Below, piece by piece: positions 42,343-63,426 of a stretch of DNA of 64,000 nucleotides (its first letter is position 1; each line of letters begins with the position of its first letter). The notes under the pieces are model-generated. The model saw only the letters and a list, made by a program, of their open reading frames with translations, was not told where the DNA came from and did no database searches. Origin of the DNA: Desulfarculaceae bacterium (GTDB lineage Bacteria > Desulfobacterota > Desulfarculia > Desulfarculales > Desulfarculaceae); NCBI GenBank assembly GCA_020444545.1, contig JAHLKT010000002.1, positions 62,001 through 126,000 of the forward strand. The letters run 5' to 3'. A program made the position numbers and the translations under genes.

Positions 42343-42384
42343 GCTCGTATAGTTTGCCATGGGCTTACTTTATCGGGCGAGCCG

Positions 42385-42480
42385 TTCCCTACGCCGGCAC
42401 TAACCGGATCAGGTTCAAGGGGTCGCTCCGCCCTGGGCGGAAGCTCTCAGCCACCGATGGGGCACCCCCCGGCCTCTATA
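42385..42480 (-). promoter_or_regulatory. TPP riboswitch (THI element) controlling thiDN-thiC
   Basis: Read on the minus strand, the aptamer shows GGGGTGCC, then CTGAGAG, then ACCCCTTGAACCTGATCCGG and finally TAGTGCCGGCGTAGGGAA, the canonical THI-box blocks in order. The stem insert between CTGAGAG and the ACC block is a GC hairpin. The aptamer ends about 45 nt before the terminator at 42342. A weak promoter (TTGACG, 17 nt, TAGGTT; plus-strand positions 42515-42487) would start transcription close to the first aptamer stem. Confidence 0.93.
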
Positions 42481-54688: not shown

Positions 54689-54765
54689 GCGCCCGTAGCT
54701 CAGCTGGATAGAGCGCCGGACTACGAATCCGTAGGCCGCCTGTTCGAATCAGGCCGGGCGCACCA
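54689..54765 (+). tRNA. tRNA-Arg (anticodon ACG)
   Basis: Acceptor arms GCGCCCG (54689-54695) and CGGGCGC (54755-54761) pair fully, with discriminator A and a genomically encoded CCA to 54765. TAGCTCAGCTGGATAGAGC is the D arm, CTACGAA the anticodon loop with ACG, and GTTCGAATC the T loop. The ACG anticodon, usually deaminated to ICG, reads CGU, CGC and CGA. tRNA-Arg 3' ends are frequent integration sites, and the sequence beyond is compositionally different. Confidence 0.95.
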
Positions 54766-55299: not shown

Positions 55300-56232
55300 C
55301 TACTTGCCATGCGGTGCCAGGAAACCGTATTTGCGGTACACCGCCTGCCCCTCTTGGCTTACCAGAAAATCCAGGAAGTCCTGGGCCGCCTGGGGATGAG
55401 GCGCCTTTTTCAAGGCCGCGGCGGTGTAGGTTACGTACTGGTTTTGCGCGTCGGGAATCTGGACCATGGCGATGGGGTTTTTTATCATGCCCTGAAAATA
55501 GGCTTCGGTGTACCAGACGGGCCCGGCATCGGCTCTCTTTTGCATGATGCGCATGGGCGTTTGGCGGTGGTGCATGCGGGTCAGCCAGGTGGTGCCGGCC
55601 TTTTTTTTGGCCTGCATGATCTTTTCTTTCAGGGCCTGGCCGCCGGCGGCCACGTATGCTTTTTGTATGGGCGTGGCAATGCCTTCCCATTGGGGGTTGG
55701 GCATGGACACCTTCACGTCGTCGCGGCCAAGGTCTTTGAGTCCCTTGATGTGCTTAGGGTTGCCCTTGTAAACCATGATGGCCAGGCGGTTGCGGGCGTA
55801 GTCCACCGTGCGGCCGAACCAGCCCTTCTCCTTCTGCATCTTCATGATGCGGCCGCGCCCCCGGGTATAGACGTCCGGTTGCAGGGCTATGCGCAGGGAG
55901 CCCACGACCAGGGATCCCTGCTCTATCTGTTGGGCCTCAATGCCCGGCGGCAGGGTTTGCCAATAAATGCGTTTGTATTGGGGATACTTCTTCTGGAAGG
56001 CCTTCATCAAGTCATGGGTGACCATGAACTGGTTCCCGGCGAAGAAAACCACCAGTTGCGGATCAACCACGTCGCCGTGCAGGTCGGCCATGTCGTTGAC
56101 GCATCGGAGATGGAATTTCTTGCCGTTGGCGGGCGTGCCGGCCCAGGGGGGATAAACCTGGGTGGCCAGGGCGGAGGAAGCCGCCAGCAGGGCCAGGGTC
56201 AGGGTGCACAAAAAAACCAGTTTCCGTAACAT
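55300..56232 (-). CDS. Periplasmic solute-binding protein (ModA/SBP type II-like), orphan
   Basis: 310 residues. A Sec signal (LVFLCTLTLALLAASSALA) ends near residue 23. The mature part has VVFFAGNQFMVTHDLMKAF, ARNRLAIMVYKGNPKHIKGL and a C-terminal AAQDFLDFLVSQEGQAVYRKYGFL, the usual closing motif of bacterial extracellular solute-binding proteins (SBP_bac_11/ModA-like). It probably captures an oxyanion or small ligand in the periplasm. No permease or ATPase gene is adjacent. It is the last gene of the cytochrome cluster and lies 67 bp after the tetraheme fusion gene. Confidence 0.78.
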   Translation of the reverse strand: MLRKLVFLCTLTLALLAASSALATQVYPPWAGTPANGKKFHLRCVNDMADLHGDVVDPQLVVFFAGNQFMVTHDLMKAFQKKYPQYKRIYWQTLPPGIEAQQIEQGSLVVGSLRIALQPDVYTRGRGRIMKMQKEKGWFGRTVDYARNRLAIMVYKGNPKHIKGLKDLGRDDVKVSMPNPQWEGIATPIQKAYVAAGGQALKEKIMQAKKKAGTTWLTRMHHRQTPMRIMQKRADAGPVWYTEAYFQGMIKNPIAMVQIPDAQNQYVTYTAAALKKAPHPQAAQDFLDFLVSQEGQAVYRKYGFLAPHGK

Positions 56233-56299
56233 ACGCCCTCTCCTTTTAGGTCAGCGGCGATCCCGGATTTGGGGCCGGGACCGCCGCTGCTTGGTTCAC

Positions 56300-58210
56300 T
56301 TACTTGGCCTTGCTCTTGTCATGGGCCTTGATGATGGGCTGGAAGGGCCCCAAACGATGCTGTTCGGCCGAGAATCCGTCATCCCAGGGAGGATAGGGCG
56401 AATCCACCGGTTTCTGCTTCTTGTCGGGGTAGTCCGTGCTCAGCTTGGCCGGGCTCATGAGGGGCCGGGGCAGGCTGTTGAAGTAGGCGGCGATGTCATA
56501 GGCCTGGCCGGTGGTGAGCACCGGATGCTGGTAAGTGGCTCCCAGGGGCATGTTGGCCCGGATGAAAGCCGCCGCGGTCCTCAGGCGGTTCATACCCGCG
56601 CCGTTGTTGTAGGCGCCCGGCCCGGCCAGGGGTGGCACCACGTACTTGGGCTGGTAGGTGTACAGGCCCTGATAGCCCATCCCCTGAACACCGTGGCAGG
56701 TCAGGCAATAGGTGGCGTAGGTTTCCTTGCCCGCGGCCAGGTTGGCCTTGCGGTCGGGGAACTTCAGCTTGGGCGTGCCCTTGCCCAACATCTTCTTGGG
56801 TGCGCCTTCGCTCAGCCAGGTCAGATAGGCCACCATGGCCTTCATTTCCGGGCTGTCCTTGGGCAGGGGCCGGCCGTTCATGCTGCGCTGGAAGCACCCG
56901 TCGATCCGGTCCTGTATGTCGCCCATGCCGCCCTTGCGGGCGCGGTAGCTGGGATAGCGCTTGGTGACTCCCACCCAGGGGTTGCCGAAACGCTGCGTCC
57001 CCATGTTCAAGTGACAGTTGGCGCAGTCCAGGGTGTTGCCCGAGTAGCGTTTGTCAAGGTGGGGCTGTCCCGAGCCCAGATGAAGGTTGGTGCGATTGAG
57101 CAGCTCAAAGCCACGGCGCACCTGCTCGCCCTCGGGGCCCTGGGGCAGATGGTTGGGGTCGCGGGGTTTCCACCAGCTGCCGGCCAAGGCCACCTTCACC
57201 GGCGGAGCCTGGTAGCGGGCCGGGGCGGTGAGGCTGTTCAGGAATAGAAGCACGGCGTGGATATCGCTCCGCTGCCATTGCTGATCCAGTTGCAGCCAAG
57301 CCATCAGGTCCACCGCCTCGCCGATGGTCCCCACTCTCCCGTCGTGGAAATAGGGCCCCGTGATGGCCACGTTCCTGAGCACCGGTACCTTGAAGACGTA
57401 GCGGTCCGCCGGGTTTTTGGTGACGCTGTAGCGGCCCAGGTCATTTTGGTCGAAGTAGGGATGGTAAACCCCAATCTTCTGGAAGAGCATGCCGCCCAAC
57501 ACCGGCCCCTCGTGGCAGCGCACGCAGCCTTGATTCATGAACAGCCGCAAGCCCTTTTTCTGCTTGGCCGAGAGGGCCGAGGCGTCCCCGGCCAGGAAGC
57601 GGTCGAAATTGCTTTTGGTGATCAGGGTGCGCTCAAAGGCCGCCACCGCGTGGGCGAAGTTCTTGGCGTTCACGGGCTCCTTGTCCTTGGGGAAGGCCTT
57701 GGCAAAGGCCTCGCGGTAGCCCTTCATCTTTTTGAGGCGTGCCATGGCCTCCACCACGTCGGGCATGCCCATCTCCATGGGGTTGAGCATGGGGCCGGTG
57801 GCCTGGGCCTCCAGGGTGGGGGCTCTGCCGTCCCAGAACTGAGCGATTTGGAAACCGGCGTTTAGGGTGCTGGGGGCGTTGCGCGGCCCGAAGTGACCCA
57901 TGGCCCCCTTGGAGGTGGGCAGATAGTCAACCCCGCCCTTGCTCTGATCCAAACGGTGACAGGTGTTGCAACTCTCGCTACGGTTCAGGGACAGTTCGGT
58001 TTCGAAATACAGCCGCTTGCCCAGGGCGGCCATCTCCGGAGTGTCGGTATCCGCTCCGGGCATCTTGTCCGGCAGTGTGCCGAAGACCGCTTTGGCCTGG
58101 CGCAGCAACATCTGATCGTCAGCGCCGGTGGCGGACATCACCTGGCCGGCCAATAGGGCGGTCAAGGCCACGGCCAGCAGCACCAAACAGGTTTTCCTCA
58201 ATCGATTCAT
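56300..58210 (-). CDS. Tetraheme fusion: diheme cytochrome c peroxidase domain + TsdA-like diheme cytochrome domain
   Basis: 636 residues with a signal peptide (cleavage near residue 26). The first ~335 residues are a MauG/CcpA-type peroxidase: haem 1 C81-x2-C84-H85 in SESCNTCHRLD, haem 2 C229-x2-C232-H233 in GCVRCHEGP, plus LGKRLYFETELSLNRS and FKVPVLRNVAITGPYFHDG. Residues ~355-585 match the TsdA family, with C396-x2-C399-H400 (LDCANCHLNMG), RIDGCFQRSMNGRPLP carrying Cys439, and C502-x2-C505-H506 (YCLTCHGVQG). The C-terminal half is paralogous to the neighbouring protein at 61853. It is periplasmic and probably joins peroxide reduction to oxidation of a sulfur compound. Confidence 0.85.
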   Translation of the reverse strand: MNRLRKTCLVLLAVALTALLAGQVMSATGADDQMLLRQAKAVFGTLPDKMPGADTDTPEMAALGKRLYFETELSLNRSESCNTCHRLDQSKGGVDYLPTSKGAMGHFGPRNAPSTLNAGFQIAQFWDGRAPTLEAQATGPMLNPMEMGMPDVVEAMARLKKMKGYREAFAKAFPKDKEPVNAKNFAHAVAAFERTLITKSNFDRFLAGDASALSAKQKKGLRLFMNQGCVRCHEGPVLGGMLFQKIGVYHPYFDQNDLGRYSVTKNPADRYVFKVPVLRNVAITGPYFHDGRVGTIGEAVDLMAWLQLDQQWQRSDIHAVLLFLNSLTAPARYQAPPVKVALAGSWWKPRDPNHLPQGPEGEQVRRGFELLNRTNLHLGSGQPHLDKRYSGNTLDCANCHLNMGTQRFGNPWVGVTKRYPSYRARKGGMGDIQDRIDGCFQRSMNGRPLPKDSPEMKAMVAYLTWLSEGAPKKMLGKGTPKLKFPDRKANLAAGKETYATYCLTCHGVQGMGYQGLYTYQPKYVVPPLAGPGAYNNGAGMNRLRTAAAFIRANMPLGATYQHPVLTTGQAYDIAAYFNSLPRPLMSPAKLSTDYPDKKQKPVDSPYPPWDDGFSAEQHRLGPFQPIIKAHDKSKAK

Positions 58211-58300
58211 CTTGGGTCATCTCCTCCCCTATGGGTCATTTACTCCCCCTCGGCTCATCCGCCGCCCGAAGCCGCCATAACGGCCGGACGGCCGCAGCGG

Positions 58301-58852
58301 CTAGAAGGGCAAGAAGGCATAGCCCCGGAGCTGGTAGGTGGGCAGCACGGTAAGGGCCGAAAGGGCGATCTCTATCTGGGGGTTCACGTCCCGGTGGGCG
58401 ATGTCGTGCTCCTTGAGCCCCTGGCCGCATACATACAGTTTGACCCCCGCCTGCTTGAGCTGATCAAGCAGCGCCAAGCTGGGGTTGGCAAAGCCGTGCT
58501 TCTTTTCATAGGCCGCGGGGGCCAGCGCCGCCTCGGTGGCCGGGCCGTGCATCACCAGCACCAAGTGCAGCTTGTCGGGCTTCACCCCGGCCGAGGCGAA
58601 AACGTTGATCAGGCGGGCCACCTTGGCCAGACCGGGAATCAGCTTGCCCTTTTCCGCCTTGCCCTTGGTTATGTCGAACACGATCTTGTAGCTGAGGGCG
58701 GGGTCGGGCTGCACCTCGGCCTTGGGCAAAGACACGATCTCGCCGGCCGCCTTGATCACAGGATGCTCCCAGGGCCTTGCGGCCAGGGCGGTCCCGGCCA
58801 TCAGCAGGCACAGGCCCGCGGCCAGGGCCAGGATGAAAAACAAGTGCTTCAT
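58301..58852 (-). CDS. Secreted DsrE/DsrF-like protein
   Basis: 183 residues from the ATG at 58852, which has GGAG upstream on the minus strand. The N-terminus KHLFFILALAAGLCLLMAG is a signal peptide cleaved near ALA (residue 24). The mature domain shows YKIVFDITKGKAEKGKLIPG, KLHLVLVMHGPATEAAL and GVKLYVCGQGLKEHDI, the DsrE fold with a conserved Cys in YVCGQGL that in DsrE/TusD proteins carries sulfane sulfur. Most DsrE proteins are cytoplasmic; export here suggests a periplasmic sulfur carrier or sensor beside the TsdA-type cytochromes. Confidence 0.8.
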   Translation of the reverse strand: MKHLFFILALAAGLCLLMAGTALAARPWEHPVIKAAGEIVSLPKAEVQPDPALSYKIVFDITKGKAEKGKLIPGLAKVARLINVFASAGVKPDKLHLVLVMHGPATEAALAPAAYEKKHGFANPSLALLDQLKQAGVKLYVCGQGLKEHDIAHRDVNPQIEIALSALTVLPTYQLRGYAFLPF

Positions 58853-58917
58853 GATCTCCTCCCTTGGAGACGAGGTTGAATATCCAATGGCAGGCAAACT
58901 GAATCGAACTTCTCTCA

Positions 58918-60489
58918 TCAATCCGGGCCGGACCCAGGCCGCCGCAGCTTTTGCACCAGGCTCACCAGGCCCCAGCGGGTGGCCTCCGGCAACTGGGCAA
59001 AGGGTTGCATCACGGTGCCGTCGTAGCCGTTGCTGATCACCGCAAAGGCCCTTTCGGGAGTCAGGCCATAGCGGGTCAGGTCGGGCGGTGCCGGGCGCAA
59101 GCCCCGGCCAAAGGCGCTCCCCTTGCCGTTGGTGCCGTGGCAGGTGGCGCAGGTGCCGGCAAAGACTCGGGCCGCCGCGGCCGGGTCGCTGGCGTGCGTT
59201 TGGGCGGGAGGCGGCGAAACCATCCCGAATTGCCGGTTCATGTAATCCAACAGCCGCTCCAGCTTGGCCCGGTCGAAAACGGTGAAGTAGGGCATGCCCG
59301 AGCCGGGGATGCCCCTGGCCACCACTTGGTACAGATAGGACCGTTGGGCGCGCACCGCGTTGATGCGCTCGGGGGGAATGATCAGGGACGCGGCCTCGGG
59401 GCCGTCGCCCCCGCCGCCGTCGCCGTGGCAAAAGGCGCAGGAGTTGGCGTAGATGGTCTCGCCGTCGTCGTAGACCGTGGCCAGGTGGGCCTGGAAGCCT
59501 TGCAGGGCCGAGGCCTTCCAGGGGGCCAGCAGGGCGCGCTGGGTCTGGGCCCGCGCCTCCAGGGTGGCCTGCACCGGGGCCACGGCCTGGTGTTGCAAAA
59601 ACTGCCTGGCCAACAGCATGGAAACCAGGATGATGGGCAAGAGCACCAGGGCGATCTTCATGCGCCCCTCCCGGGCCTCGGAGCCGCGGTAAAAGGCCAG
59701 GCCCACCAAGACCATGGCCGCGGCCACCCCCACGCTCACCGCCGCGATGATGGCCGGGGTCAGCCGGTCCAGCAGACTGCCCAGCAGCAGCACCCCCACC
59801 ACCACCTGGAACAGCACCGCCACCACCATCCAATGGGAAAGGTGATAGTGACGATCCTCGGCGCCCTTGGTGGAAAAGAAGAAGTGAAAGGCCCCGCCGA
59901 ACAGGGCGGCCGCGCCCAGAATATGCAGGTAGCGCATGAGCCAGTGGAACACCAGGACCGGTTCCTCGGCCAAGCCCCGGGCGGCCACCCGGGCCCACTT
60001 GTCCGGATTCTCCATTAGGGTGAGCACCGCGGTGAACACCGCCGGCACGGCCATGAGGGCAGCCAGGCCCAGCACCCCGAAAATAAGGTGCCTGACCGGG
60101 CGCACCTCGATCTTGTGGCCAATGGTGTCCAGGGAGAGGAAGGCGGTGATCATCAACACCAGCAGGCCCAGCCAGTAGGGGGCCAACAGCGCGGCGGCGG
60201 TGAGGAAGGGTACGCTCCAGAGCACCTGGATGATCAGCAGTGGCGCCACCCCCAGCACCACGGCCAGGCTTTTCAGGGCCAGGTGGATGCGCAGCACCCG
60301 CTTGTCCCAGCGCAACTCGAAGCGGTAGCCGGTCAGCCAGGAATGGGCGAAGAAGAACACCGCGATCATGGCCGTGCCCAGCATCAGGAGCACGAACAAC
60401 AGGTGCAAGGCAAAGGAGCCGAACAGGAGCAGCTCCATTGCCCCATCGCCAAAGGGCTTGGCCAAAAGAAGGTCGTGCAGGTTATTCAT
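58918..60489 (-). CDS. Cytochrome bd-superfamily-like membrane subunit with C-terminal diheme cytochrome c
   Basis: 523 residues. About eight helices fill residues 20-310, with His residues in SFALHLLFVLLMLG and in VFHWLMRYLHILGAAALFGG, which aligns by eye with the haem-ligand helix of CydA. Residues ~335-515 form two cytochrome c domains with CAFCH (351-355) and CATCH (447-451), each followed by G-x-G type class I cytochrome c sequence and a distal Met candidate (GMPYFTVF, TVMQPFAQ). The C-terminal domains should face the periplasm. It overlaps the upstream CydA-like gene by 8 nt and is likely its partner subunit. The bd assignment of this subunit is tentative. Confidence 0.65.
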   Translation of the reverse strand: MNNLHDLLLAKPFGDGAMELLLFGSFALHLLFVLLMLGTAMIAVFFFAHSWLTGYRFELRWDKRVLRIHLALKSLAVVLGVAPLLIIQVLWSVPFLTAAALLAPYWLGLLVLMITAFLSLDTIGHKIEVRPVRHLIFGVLGLAALMAVPAVFTAVLTLMENPDKWARVAARGLAEEPVLVFHWLMRYLHILGAAALFGGAFHFFFSTKGAEDRHYHLSHWMVVAVLFQVVVGVLLLGSLLDRLTPAIIAAVSVGVAAAMVLVGLAFYRGSEAREGRMKIALVLLPIILVSMLLARQFLQHQAVAPVQATLEARAQTQRALLAPWKASALQGFQAHLATVYDDGETIYANSCAFCHGDGGGGDGPEAASLIIPPERINAVRAQRSYLYQVVARGIPGSGMPYFTVFDRAKLERLLDYMNRQFGMVSPPPAQTHASDPAAAARVFAGTCATCHGTNGKGSAFGRGLRPAPPDLTRYGLTPERAFAVISNGYDGTVMQPFAQLPEATRWGLVSLVQKLRRPGSGPD

Positions 60490-61849
60490 GCCGCCCCGCC
60501 TTCCGGCCGATGGGCGGCACCGCTTCCATGGAGCGGCGCGAGCCGGACAGCTCGTAGAGGTAGGCGGCCATGGTCAGCGCCTCGTCCGGGGTGCCCGCGA
60601 AGGCGGGCATGAAGGGCACCATCTGCTCGGTGCGGCGCACAATTACCCCAACCGAGGGCTGGGTGCGCCCAGCCAGGCGGTCGCGGATGTCGTTGAGGCC
60701 TCCGATGCTGTGGCACACCCCGCAGTTGGCCATGAACAGGGCGTGCCCGGCCGGGGCGCGCGGCTCCAGGCCCGGCGGTTGGGCCGCGTACCAGGCGGCC
60801 TGGGAGAGCATGCCCTGGCGGCGGACCTGCTCCGCGCGGGTCAGGGGGACCTGGCTGGCGTACATGTAGCCTGGCATGAGGTAGGGGCCCCTAATGAACT
60901 CGCGGGCCCGCTCGAACTCTATGACCAGGCCCACCGCCAGGATCATGGCCGGGATTATCAAGAGGCGGGCGGCCAGCCGCAGGCGGAAAAGGGCGGCCGC
61001 CGCCGCGCCGGCGATAATCACCACGGCAAGCAGGTTGCCCAGCCAGAGCAGCCAGCCTTCCTGAGACAGGTGCGAGGTGAGCACCGCGAAAACCTTGTGC
61101 ACCGAATAGGTGCGAGGCACCGCGCTGAAATAAAGCCAGCCCGCCAGCGCGGCCAGGGCGCCTCCGGCCAATATCCAGCCGCCCAGCAGGCGCATCACCC
61201 GCCGGCGCAGCTCGGCGCCGGGCTTGCGGCTGAAAAGCACCATGCCCAGGCAAAACAGCCCGCCCAGGGCCAGTCCTCCCAGGAAACGCAGGGCCAGCTG
61301 GGGCCAGAAGGTGGGGTTGAAAAAGGCCGATACCAGGCGCTGGTTCTGCACCCAGCCGTCCGGGGTGAGCATGAAGCCCAGGATGCCGGAGATGAGGAAG
61401 GCCGAGCAGAAGGCGATGGCCACGTAGGACCAGCCCAAGGCCACGTGCAGTCCGGCCCGCCTGGCGCGCATGCGCTCCCACAAAAAATAGTAGGGCAGCA
61501 GCACCAGGACCTCCAGGGTGAAGGCGATCCATTCGATGAACCAGGGCCAGAAAAATACCCGCAGCATGGAGCCGATGCCCTGAGGGGCCAGCACGCTCAC
61601 CGTGAACCAGATGCCTGCCCCGGTCACCGCGCCCACCGCGGTGATGATGATCACCGCCGGCTTGAGCAGATGCTTGGCTAGATCCTCCAGCTCGCCGTCG
61701 CCCCTGCGCAGGGCCAGCTGCTCCATGAGCACGATGAGAGTCAACAGGCCTATGGCGAATCCGTGGCTGATCAGCACATGCACCACCGCCACCAGTGCGA
61801 TGCTCATGCCTTGCCCCAAAGCAGGCATGTAGAAGGTTGGGAACAGCAC
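60482..61849 (-). CDS. CydA-like cytochrome bd-superfamily subunit with C-terminal cytochrome c domain
   Basis: 455 residues, about nine helices. AVVHVLISHGFAIGLLTLIV holds the N-terminal His (24 or 29) corresponding to the CydA high-spin haem ligand, GAVTGAGIWFTVSVLAP matches the CydA G-x-T-G-x2-x-x-F region, WFIEWIAFTLE carries a Glu pair (106 and 113), and DGWVQNQ matches CydA GWMQNP. The helix where CydA has its b558 ligand His shows Arg188 (PQLALRFLGG) instead. No quinol-binding Q-loop is evident. Residues ~360-440 are a cytochrome c domain with CGVCH (376-380) and a Met-rich VPFMPAFAG. It is likely a c-type cytochrome-linked oxygen reductase subunit. Confidence 0.72.
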   Translation of the reverse strand: MLFPTFYMPALGQGMSIALVAVVHVLISHGFAIGLLTLIVLMEQLALRRGDGELEDLAKHLLKPAVIIITAVGAVTGAGIWFTVSVLAPQGIGSMLRVFFWPWFIEWIAFTLEVLVLLPYYFLWERMRARRAGLHVALGWSYVAIAFCSAFLISGILGFMLTPDGWVQNQRLVSAFFNPTFWPQLALRFLGGLALGGLFCLGMVLFSRKPGAELRRRVMRLLGGWILAGGALAALAGWLYFSAVPRTYSVHKVFAVLTSHLSQEGWLLWLGNLLAVVIIAGAAAAALFRLRLAARLLIIPAMILAVGLVIEFERAREFIRGPYLMPGYMYASQVPLTRAEQVRRQGMLSQAAWYAAQPPGLEPRAPAGHALFMANCGVCHSIGGLNDIRDRLAGRTQPSVGVIVRRTEQMVPFMPAFAGTPDEALTMAAYLYELSGSRRSMEAVPPIGRKAGRHE

Positions 61850-61852
61850 GGC

Positions 61853-62686
61853 CTACTTCCCCGCCTCGAAGTGTGGGCGCGGCTGGCTGGTGGCATAGGC
61901 GGCCACGTCCAGGGCCTGGGCCACGCTCAGGGTGGGGTTGTTCTTAGGCATGAAATGATGGGTGAAGGCCGAGAAGTTCTTCATCTTGTGCATGCCGGCT
62001 CCGTCGTTGAAAGACTGGGGGCCCCACAGGGGCGGGGCGATCGGGGTGCCCTGGCCGCCGTCCCCGTGGCAGCGGGAGCAGACCTGGGCGAAGACGGCCT
62101 GGCCCTGGGCTTTGTCCGGCTTGTGGTCGCTCTTGAGCTTCTTCAGGCCCAGCCAGGGGATGTCGGCGTAGATGGGCAGCCCCTTGGAGATCCAGTGGTA
62201 GTAGGCCATGATGGCCTGCATGTGCCTGCCTTCGGGCGGCAGGGTCTTCCCGTTCATGCTGCGCTGGAAGCAGCCCTGGGTGCGGGTCACCAAGTCGGTG
62301 ACGTATTTGCGGCGCTTGCGGTACTTGGGGTACTTGGCCGCCACCCCCACCAGGGACAGGGTGTTGCGCTCCCGCCCGGCGTTGAAGTGGCAGTTGCGGC
62401 AGTTGAGCTGGTTGCCCACGTACTCTTTGGCGTAGGTCTGGGTGTCCATGAGGATGTTGTAGCCCAGCATGACCCCCTCCCGGATGTCGGCCGGGGCGTC
62501 CTGGGGCCGGGGCGGGGCAAAGACCACCGCCGAGGCCTTGAGGCTTTCCCCCGGCGAGCCGCCCGCCATCAGCGCGCGCTGGACCGGGGGACCGGCCATG
62601 CTGCCCATCATGGCGTATAGGCCGGCGCCTCCGACTATGAGCACTAGGGCCAGCACAAGGGCGAAAAGGATGCCGCGAGAGTTCAA
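61853..62686 (-). CDS. TsdA-like diheme cytochrome c (thiosulfate dehydrogenase family)
   Basis: 277 residues with an N-terminal membrane anchor or uncleaved signal (residues 7-27). Haem 1 is C96-x2-C99-H100 (NCRNCHFNAG), then LVGVAAKYPKYRKR and QGCFQRSMNGKTLPP with Cys139, the position of the Cys that in TsdA is an axial haem ligand. Haem 2 is C203-x2-C206-H207 (CSRCHGDGGQG). The block NDGAGMHKMKNFSAF repeats in the fusion protein at 56300. TsdA oxidises thiosulfate to tetrathionate, or the reverse, in the periplasm. It is the first gene of the six-gene cluster, 3 bp before the CydA-like gene. Confidence 0.83.
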   Translation of the reverse strand: MNSRGILFALVLALVLIVGGAGLYAMMGSMAGPPVQRALMAGGSPGESLKASAVVFAPPRPQDAPADIREGVMLGYNILMDTQTYAKEYVGNQLNCRNCHFNAGRERNTLSLVGVAAKYPKYRKRRKYVTDLVTRTQGCFQRSMNGKTLPPEGRHMQAIMAYYHWISKGLPIYADIPWLGLKKLKSDHKPDKAQGQAVFAQVCSRCHGDGGQGTPIAPPLWGPQSFNDGAGMHKMKNFSAFTHHFMPKNNPTLSVAQALDVAAYATSQPRPHFEAGK

Positions 62687-62779
62687 GGGTTCCTCCCGAA
62701 TGAGTGAGAATGAAGAGCAGAAACCGTTTAACTAGGTCGGAGAGAAAAAACTGGTGGGGATGGCGTCTGCCTAGTTTCA

Positions 62780-62808
62780 ATTATGCGCGGGTAGGAATTC
62801 CCAACCAA
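62780..62808 (-). promoter_or_regulatory. Promoter candidate of the cytochrome cluster
   Basis: On the minus strand TTGGTT and CATAAT are separated by 17 nt (plus positions 62808-62803 and 62785-62780). It lies about 95 nt before the TsdA-like start codon, in an AT-richer part of the 62687-63021 intergenic region. The spacer contains the palindrome GGAATTCC. Confidence 0.4.
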
Positions 62809-62950
62809 TACGAATTGTCATAAATCTTGTACTGAAATACTACTATTCTTGTCGGATAGATGGCAGTTTGGCCTCTAATGCCCGGCAAATCAAAGATATA
62901 TCCCGGCACCGGCTCGCAGAGACGTAGCCAAACAAGACGCCCAGTGTCCG

Positions 62951-62980
62951 CCGAATCCGATTCGGCAAGGCTGCTAGAAT
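62951..62980 (+). promoter_or_regulatory. Palindromic operator-like site overlapping a promoter upstream of the DUF302 gene
   Basis: CCGAATC-C-GATTCGG (62951-62965) is a perfect 7-bp inverted repeat with one central base. An extended -10 element TGCTAGAAT follows at 62972-62980, so the palindrome covers the -35 position. The DUF302 ATG is 41 nt further. The remainder of 62809-62950 holds no gene. Confidence 0.5.
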
Positions 62981-63021
62981 AGGTTCAAGGCCTATTTGAC
63001 GGGGTGAATTTAGGAGGAAAC

Positions 63022-63426
63022 ATGGAAAACCTGAAAAAGCTAGCCTTCCGCGCCAGCGTGCAGGCCTCTTTTGATGAGGCGCTGCAAATGGCCAAGGATG
63101 CCCTCGGAGAAGAGGGCTTTGGCGTCCTGACCGAGATAGACATTCAGGCCGCTCTCAAGAAAAAACTGGATCAGGATTTCCGAAAATACATCATCCTTGG
63201 CGCCTGCAACCCACCCTTTGCGCTGAGGGCCTTGCAGGCCGATCTGGAGGTCGGCCTGCTTCTGCCCTGCAATCTCATTGTTTATCAGGACGATCAGGGG
63301 GGCATCCAGGTGGCTGCCCTTAACCCGGTCGCGGCACTGGGGGTGATGGATATTCCGGAGCTGGATCAGGTGGCTCAGGAAGTCTCGGAACGGCTGCGGC
63401 GGGTGATTGGGCGCATCGCTGCTTAG
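63022..63426 (+). CDS. DUF302 domain protein
   Basis: 134 residues from the ATG at 63022, supported by a strong AGGAGGAAA. VQASFDEALQMAKDALGEEGFGVLTEIDI and YIILGACNPPFALRALQAD, followed by LLPCNLIVY, are the three conserved DUF302 blocks; the cysteines in GACNPP and LLPCN are typical. DUF302 proteins are small cytoplasmic proteins that often sit beside sulfur-oxidation or metal-resistance genes. Here it is divergent from the TsdA-containing cluster. Confidence 0.88.
   Translation: MENLKKLAFRASVQASFDEALQMAKDALGEEGFGVLTEIDIQAALKKKLDQDFRKYIILGACNPPFALRALQADLEVGLLLPCNLIVYQDDQGGIQVAALNPVAALGVMDIPELDQVAQEVSERLRRVIGRIAA

Follow-up and report, generated by a model that had tools for sequence, protein, structure and literature searches.

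A TsdB partner encoded next to TsdA is not universal in the TsdA family of dihaem cytochromes, and the surroundings of haem 2 influence the direction of TsdA catalysis. Members of the cytochrome bd superfamily that do not use quinol are widespread, with an electron donor that, to our knowledge, has not been established. In TsdA of Campylobacter jejuni, exchange of the Cys at haem 1 gives a virtually inactive enzyme, and the TsdA-related electron donor CccC has Met at that position (PMC5146829). Two bd-superfamily families without a quinol site, OR-C and OR-N, are attributed to Murali, Gennis and Hemp (2021) in passages of later papers (PMC10839748, PMC13189123, PMC11707229), one of which cites the OR-N enzymes as thought to use cytochrome c (PMC10839748). 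Here we analyse a six-gene cluster, g1–g6, in a 64,000-nucleotide stretch (the window) of the genome of a Desulfarculaceae bacterium (assembly GCA_020444545.1, contig JAHLKT010000002.1, positions 62,001 to 126,000), in which a TsdA-like gene is followed by two genes for bd-superfamily membrane proteins. With a probability of about 0.58, we infer that g1-g2-g3 encode a periplasm-facing, membrane-bound complex that works as a thiosulfate-driven bd-superfamily O2 reductase, both the direction of electron flow and the reduction of O2 being part of that inference.

The cluster and its upstream region comprise the following features.

61853..62686, minus strand: g1, TsdA-like cytochrome c with two haems and, at its N terminus, a membrane anchor or signal; 277 amino acids, TTG start
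60482..61849, minus strand: g2, membrane subunit of the CydA superfamily that ends in one cytochrome c; 455 amino acids
58918..60489, minus strand: g3, a further membrane subunit with the CydA fold (CydA') that ends in two cytochromes c; 523 amino acids
58301..58852, minus strand: g4, exported DsrE-like sulfur-carrier protein; 183 amino acids
56300..58210, minus strand: g5, bacterial dihaem cytochrome c peroxidase (CCP, residues ~31-330) fused to a TsdA-like dihaem module (~355-586)
55300..56232, minus strand: g6, periplasmic solute-binding protein, an orphan from the ModA/CysP-like group; 310 amino acids
62687..63003, no strand assigned: intergenic region between g1 and a divergent DUF302 gene, presumed from its position to hold the promoter

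The open reading frames (ORFs) of the window confirm the run of six same-strand genes that the original prediction, made from the sequence alone, had placed here: they extend from 62686 down to 55300 with short spacers (in order, +3, -8 (an overlap), +65, +90 and +67 bp). Its count of nine CXXCH sites is likewise correct (2+1+2+0+4+0 for g1 to g6). Two more species of the genus have the identical six genes in identical order (75–94% identity for g5 and 79–91% for g2), and g1-g2-g3 are present in ~35 other genomes; the cluster is thus neither a chance arrangement nor an assembly artefact. A simple scan of 62687..63003 found no sigma-70-like site upstream of g1.

The conserved unit comprises three genes

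Searching genome contigs with g2 only, we gathered 35 loci, a set that is biased to g2-like sequences but was not selected for g1 or g3. Where the flanks are long enough, nearly all loci have a TsdA-like gene that stops 3–21 bp short of g2 (with a 1-base overlap in one pair) and have g3 directly after g2. The g2 family falls into score groups, with intact genes of clade 1 having profile scores of ~600–780 versus less than ~275 for the others. On a tree of 63 g2 proteins, TsdA was directly upstream of g2 in 36 of 38 distinct clade-1 members compared with 0 of 25 members of other clades, a few of which have <1 kb of upstream sequence. Adjacency to TsdA needs a minimum of 3 changes on this tree, versus a mean of 20.6 after shuffling. 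The other clades have a g3-like partner without c haems, so association with TsdA and a g3 bearing two c haems occur together. Hosts of clade 1 are Desulfobacterota, Nitrospirota and Planctomycetota, plus metagenome-assembled genomes (MAGs) labelled otherwise; MAG binning may mislabel hosts, and the Bacteroidetes, Methanoperedens and Planctomycetota contig labels are possibly binning errors.

The association also holds at the level of whole genomes. When g1 and g2 profiles were run on the same-sized phylum sample (395 Desulfobacterota genomes), the g1 profile matched 16 genomes, which included 12 of 12 clade-1 carriers and four others: two with only a CCP-TsdA fusion (G173 and G225), one with TsdA beside a separate CCP (G184) and one with a relic (G006). 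This co-occurrence of TsdA with clade-1 g2 is highly significant by genome (Fisher p = 7e-20) and by genus (5e-7). Pairwise distances among g1, g2 and g3 correlate with r 0.92–0.94, a value that includes shared ancestry and is expected if the trio travelled together.

The real unit is g1-g2-g3, not six genes. Conserved co-occurrence in related genomes, a test set by the original prediction, was borne out very strongly for the TsdA-like gene and the genes of the two membrane proteins. We rejected an ancient six-gene unit because g4, g5 and g6 all join the module only in the window's genus and do so singly elsewhere. The genes for DsrE, the solute-binding protein and the CCP-TsdA fusion were added in particular lineages, and each was found near at least one distant copy of the module.

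The searches also returned degraded and variant loci. In G006, a single-contig genome of the same genus, a 106-residue piece of g1 (L128:9526-9843, 71% identical) is the sole remnant in a 19-kb stretch, neither g2 nor full-length g5 was found in the genome, and the cluster seems to have been lost in this sister species. In a Desulfobaccales MAG (L040 5481-9266, also G346), g1 has a frameshift, and both g2 and g3 are interrupted once by an in-frame TAG (codons 239 and 298) but are conserved apart from it; this may reflect decay, assembly error or a recoded TAG. Another clade of g2 relatives of the same family (L017, L018, L020, L021 and L022) has a multihaem C-terminal fusion with 8 CXXCH in ~880 amino acids, and an 8-CXXCH cytochrome is encoded as a separate gene next to an unfused g2 at L019:7099-8595.

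Conserved residues and predicted folds

The product of g1 matches the Pfam SoxA-TsdA cytochrome c domain (7e-12) and a second cytochrome c domain, and its best PDB match is Allochromatium vinosum TsdA (4wq7, 1.3e-40), which covers both domains (residues 67–274). Cys139, the distal ligand of haem 1 within a CFxRS motif, is invariant in 27 of 27 sequences, as are both CXXC pairs and Met246 at haem 2; the haem histidines are conserved in 27/27 and 26/27. Because the Cys is essential in C. jejuni TsdA, replaced by Met in CccC and kept in g1, g1 seems to be an enzyme and not just an electron carrier. Beside g1, the window has no gene for a separate TsdB-like protein; g2-g3 occupy that place.

For g2, Pfam identifies Cyt_bd_oxida_I (2e-18, residues 17–238) and a C-terminal cytochrome c. 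Its profile matches subunit I of a bd oxidase (5doq, 2e-18), and its AF2 (AlphaFold2) model aligns to CydA chains with Z up to 28. In alignments to 5doq and Escherichia coli CydA, the residues H24, E106, E113 and E313, invariant in 33 of 33 sequences, are equivalent to E. coli H19, E99, E107 and E445, with the last equivalence resting on a weak second alignment segment. By contrast, the position of the b558 ligand H186 is an invariant Arg (R188), and the profile skips the Q-loop region of 5doq, showing that g2 is without a Q-loop.

The membrane part of g3 has no Pfam match, its two C-terminal cytochromes c being the only domains recognized. Its AF2 model (pLDDT 86) nonetheless ranks bd oxidase chains in all of Foldseek positions 1–17, and VIA-align places CydA chains in ranks 1–10 (Z 23–26, top 25.6), compared with 15–17 for the membrane subunits of alternative complex III and polysulfide reductase. 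A profile match to g2 (Prob 96) is partly via the cytochrome c domains. Residues H29, Q88, R186, H189 and R295 are invariant. Foldseek lists both bd subunits, but VIA-align puts ten CydA chains first, and we therefore rejected CydB as the identity of g3 in favour of a CydA-type paralogue. With such a paralogue in the place of CydB, the membrane part is most plausibly a CydAA'-type pair whose tails bear c haems.

The family assignments of the original prediction thus stand: the structure models give a CydA fold for both membrane proteins, and g1 and the C terminus of g5 are TsdA relatives by sequence that keep the catalytic Cys. The absence of a quinol site and an attached c-type haem, which we take from secondary sources to define OR-C, are both seen in g2 and g3, and we tentatively assign the clade to the OR-C kind of the bd superfamily.

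Host and sulfur context

The host genome (100% complete, 0.65% contamination), which among named genomes is closest to MAGs of the Desulfarculaceae, contains dsrA, one cytochrome b6-like gene and, in addition to g2, two canonical CydA genes; no haem-copper oxidase was found in it. The host is a sulfate reducer.

Genes for SoxB-like proteins lie near the module in six loci (L028, L029, L031, L041, L044 and L046). Their best NCBIfam match is SoxB, although the two full-length ones score 352–360 bits against a cut-off of 550. Genes for DsrE (L027, L031 and L041), DsrC (L047) and TauE (L027, L044 and L058) also occur near the module. None of SoxB-like, DsrC or TauE turned up around the clade-2 loci examined, which have fewer and shorter flanks, and no SoxB-like gene is beside the module in the window's genus. 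Together with the accessory genes, the SoxB-like, DsrC and TauE neighbours point to sulfur chemistry, for which the TsdA-SoxB pathway of Erythrobacter (PMC7608252) is a precedent.

Proposed function and alternatives

In the mechanism we propose, g1 would be anchored at the outer face of the membrane and, as its family and conserved ligands suggest, would oxidize thiosulfate or a related sulfane compound to tetrathionate at the Cys-ligated haem. Judging from the architecture, electrons would pass from the His/Met haem of g1 to the c haems on the tails of the membrane subunits (two in g3 and one in g2), and then into the two-haem bd-type site of g2, where O2 would be reduced with cytoplasmic protons. 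The missing Q-loop and b558 histidine fit a path in which no quinol is needed. A quinone-free path also fits the thiosulfate/tetrathionate couple, which at ~+0.2 V is able to deliver electrons to O2 but scarcely to menaquinone. For a sulfate reducer, the likely gain would be O2 removal or micro-oxic energy conservation, with the menaquinol pool spared.

Several observations weigh against thiosulfate-driven O2 reduction. TsdA enzymes are reversible, and the C. jejuni enzyme runs as a tetrathionate reductase (PMC5146829). Two loci (L047 and L052) carry g2-g3 with no TsdA next door. The two canonical bd oxidases and the cytochrome b6-like gene of the host mean that quinol could feed the complex through cytochromes. 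In L050, a second TsdA-like gene and g2-g3 are immediately preceded by a 1,152-amino-acid ORF (L050:4262-7717) in which a SoxA/TsdA domain is joined to cytochrome b and several cytochromes c, a hint that quinol may be the electron source at this locus. Finally, the literature yielded no biochemical data for any member of the module.

The first of these points would suit a module that works in reverse, in which the membrane pair sends electrons from quinol or a cytochrome pool to g1, making it a quinol:tetrathionate reductase with the bd haems serving only as wires. C. jejuni TsdA has Asn before the haem-2 Met; among 27 g1 homologues, this residue is Phe (14) or Asn (13) and never the Lys of A. 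vinosum, and sulfate reducers live mostly without O2. The membrane pair, however, lacks the elements of the bd quinol site (Q-loop and b558 ligand) while its O2-site residues are invariant, and we regard reverse working as improbable.

The quinol-related points would instead be expected of a general cytochrome c:O2 oxidase, for which g1 is only the electron-entry cytochrome, fed by quinol via a b-type complex or by periplasmic hydrogenase or cytochrome pools, and sulfur is not a substrate. Such an oxidase would account for the host cytochrome b6-like gene and for the cytochrome b, cytochromes c and TsdA-like domain upstream at L050, and it has a precedent in CccC, a TsdA relative that is an efficient donor to the C. 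jejuni cb-oxidase (PMC5146829). But the haem-1 position that is Met in CccC is Cys in every g1 sequence, and sulfur genes cluster with the module. We consider a sulfur-independent oxidase unlikely, though it deserves to be taken seriously.

Of the thiosulfate oxidation module coupled to O2 and H2O2 that was originally proposed, TsdA/bd co-occurrence and the predicted folds back the core, the six-gene scope falls away, and the 'dedicated' reduction and the oxidative direction are still matters that we infer.

Accessory genes

The product of g5 combines CCP_MauG (1e-51), SoxA-TsdA and cytochrome c domains with four CXXCH sites, and matches both CCP (6qkn, 3.4e-76) and TsdA (4wqc, 4.4e-43) in a single chain. 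Residues 31–330 align with CCP 6qkn/3o5c, and the Met in EAVDLMAWLQL aligns with a CCP Met; from knowledge of the family, this is presumably the ligand of the high-potential haem. The TsdA motif is kept as GCFQRSMNG. We rejected a MauG/MbnH role, as the peroxidase half is nearest to classical bacterial CCP (~260 bits versus ~92 bits for MauG). Full-length CCP-TsdA fusions were found in 5 of the 395 genomes, three of them in the window's genus inside the cluster and two elsewhere, and a fusion also lies near the module at L048, a distant locus. G184, whose genome gave no match to the g2 family, has separate neighbouring genes for TsdA, CCP and what by eye is probably a solute-binding protein (L129:5872-9330), paralleling g5-g6. 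In the window's genus, g5 would wire a second TsdA module in-chain to a peroxidase, and thiosulfate could in this way supply electrons for removing H2O2 as well.

The peroxidase fusion, together with the CCP beside TsdA in G184, raises the question of whether the terminal acceptor of the module is H2O2 or NO rather than O2, in a periplasmic detoxification module; we know of no assay of such divergent bd-like sites. A CCP-TsdA fusion is absent from the side of the module in most carriers, and the bd active-site residues are complete, which makes this acceptor very unlikely in our view.

The other two genes could handle or bind sulfur products or substrate. The g4 product is a DsrE protein (PF02635, 1.6e-11) behind a signal-like N terminus, with C142 invariant in six homologues, and a related DsrE (1e-51) is encoded directly before g1 in L027. 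The g6 product matches SBP_bac_11 (8.9e-44), with weaker matches to modA (2.5e-10) and CysP (2e-8) that are both under curated cut-offs; related solute-binding proteins are encoded near the module in L028, L029 and L058.

Around the cluster, an island at the tRNA-Arg gene (54689-54765) was considered and rejected: there are no flanking direct repeats, and the sole long repeat is the TsdA motif common to g1 and g5. The divergent DUF302 gene upstream of the cluster spans window positions 63004-63426, and another DUF302 gene comes after the SoxB-like gene of L028. Further away, the window contains a TPP (thiamine pyrophosphate) riboswitch on the minus strand (42368-42479, 71 bits).

Implications

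All of the protein families involved are known, and it is their locked combination that appears new. No description of a TsdA-bd operon or a CCP-TsdA fusion was found in the literature searched, most subscription papers being outside its reach; within those bounds, the view that no system with such a gene set has been described still holds. The near-invariant genetic lock between TsdA and one bd clade makes the donor question testable by a single assay, and one of the carriers, Desulfogranum japonicum DSM 18378, is a culture-collection strain. Collectively, the results suggest a dedicated wire from sulfur compounds to O2 in a sulfate reducer. Sulfate reducers can respire O2 and can form sulfur on exposure to it (PMC6355691); a thiosulfate-driven O2 reductase, if true, would provide a genetic basis for their O2-dependent oxidation of sulfur compounds.

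A bolder claim would make TsdA an obligate subunit of a bd-superfamily oxidase, forming a quinone-free, copper-free periplasmic thiosulfate:O2 short circuit that has spread through strict anaerobes. It would explain the O2-dependent sulfur oxidation of sulfate reducers, name the OR-C donor and add a single-chain thiosulfate peroxidase in the window's genus. We give this claim in full somewhat less than an even chance.

Comparison with known systems

Among known systems, g1 is nearest to the thiosulfate dehydrogenase/tetrathionate reductase TsdA of A. vinosum and C. jejuni (4wq7 and 4v2k), the same kind of dihaem protein with Cys and Met distal ligands (E 1e-40). The TsdBA of Marichromatium (5lo9) has in common with the module the idea of a dedicated haem partner, but the partner here is a bd-type membrane pair, not TsdB. 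Like g1, CccC (Cj0037) of C. jejuni is a TsdA relative, and it feeds a terminal oxidase; unlike g1, it has Met for the catalytic Cys, and its oxidase is a cb-oxidase of the haem-copper kind.

The canonical CydAB quinol oxidase has the same fold and O2-site residues as g2, whereas g2 and g3 are without the Q-loop, the b558 histidine and CydB, and have added c haems. The OR-C and OR-N families are nearer, with a CydA core, two active-site haem ligands, no quinol site, CydAA' pairing and a supposed cytochrome c donor; the module differs from them in the c haems fused to both membrane subunits and in the TsdA gene locked to the operon. Bacterial dihaem CCP (6qkn and 3o5c) resembles the N-terminal half of g5 (~260 bits), to which g5 adds a C-terminal dihaem TsdA-like module that could act as a built-in donor. 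A thiosulfate pathway that joins TsdA and SoxB is known in Erythrobacter flavus (PMC7608252), and a SoxB-type hydrolase is similarly encoded beside several copies of the module, but the SoxB-like proteins here are under the cut-off and the window's genus has none beside its module.

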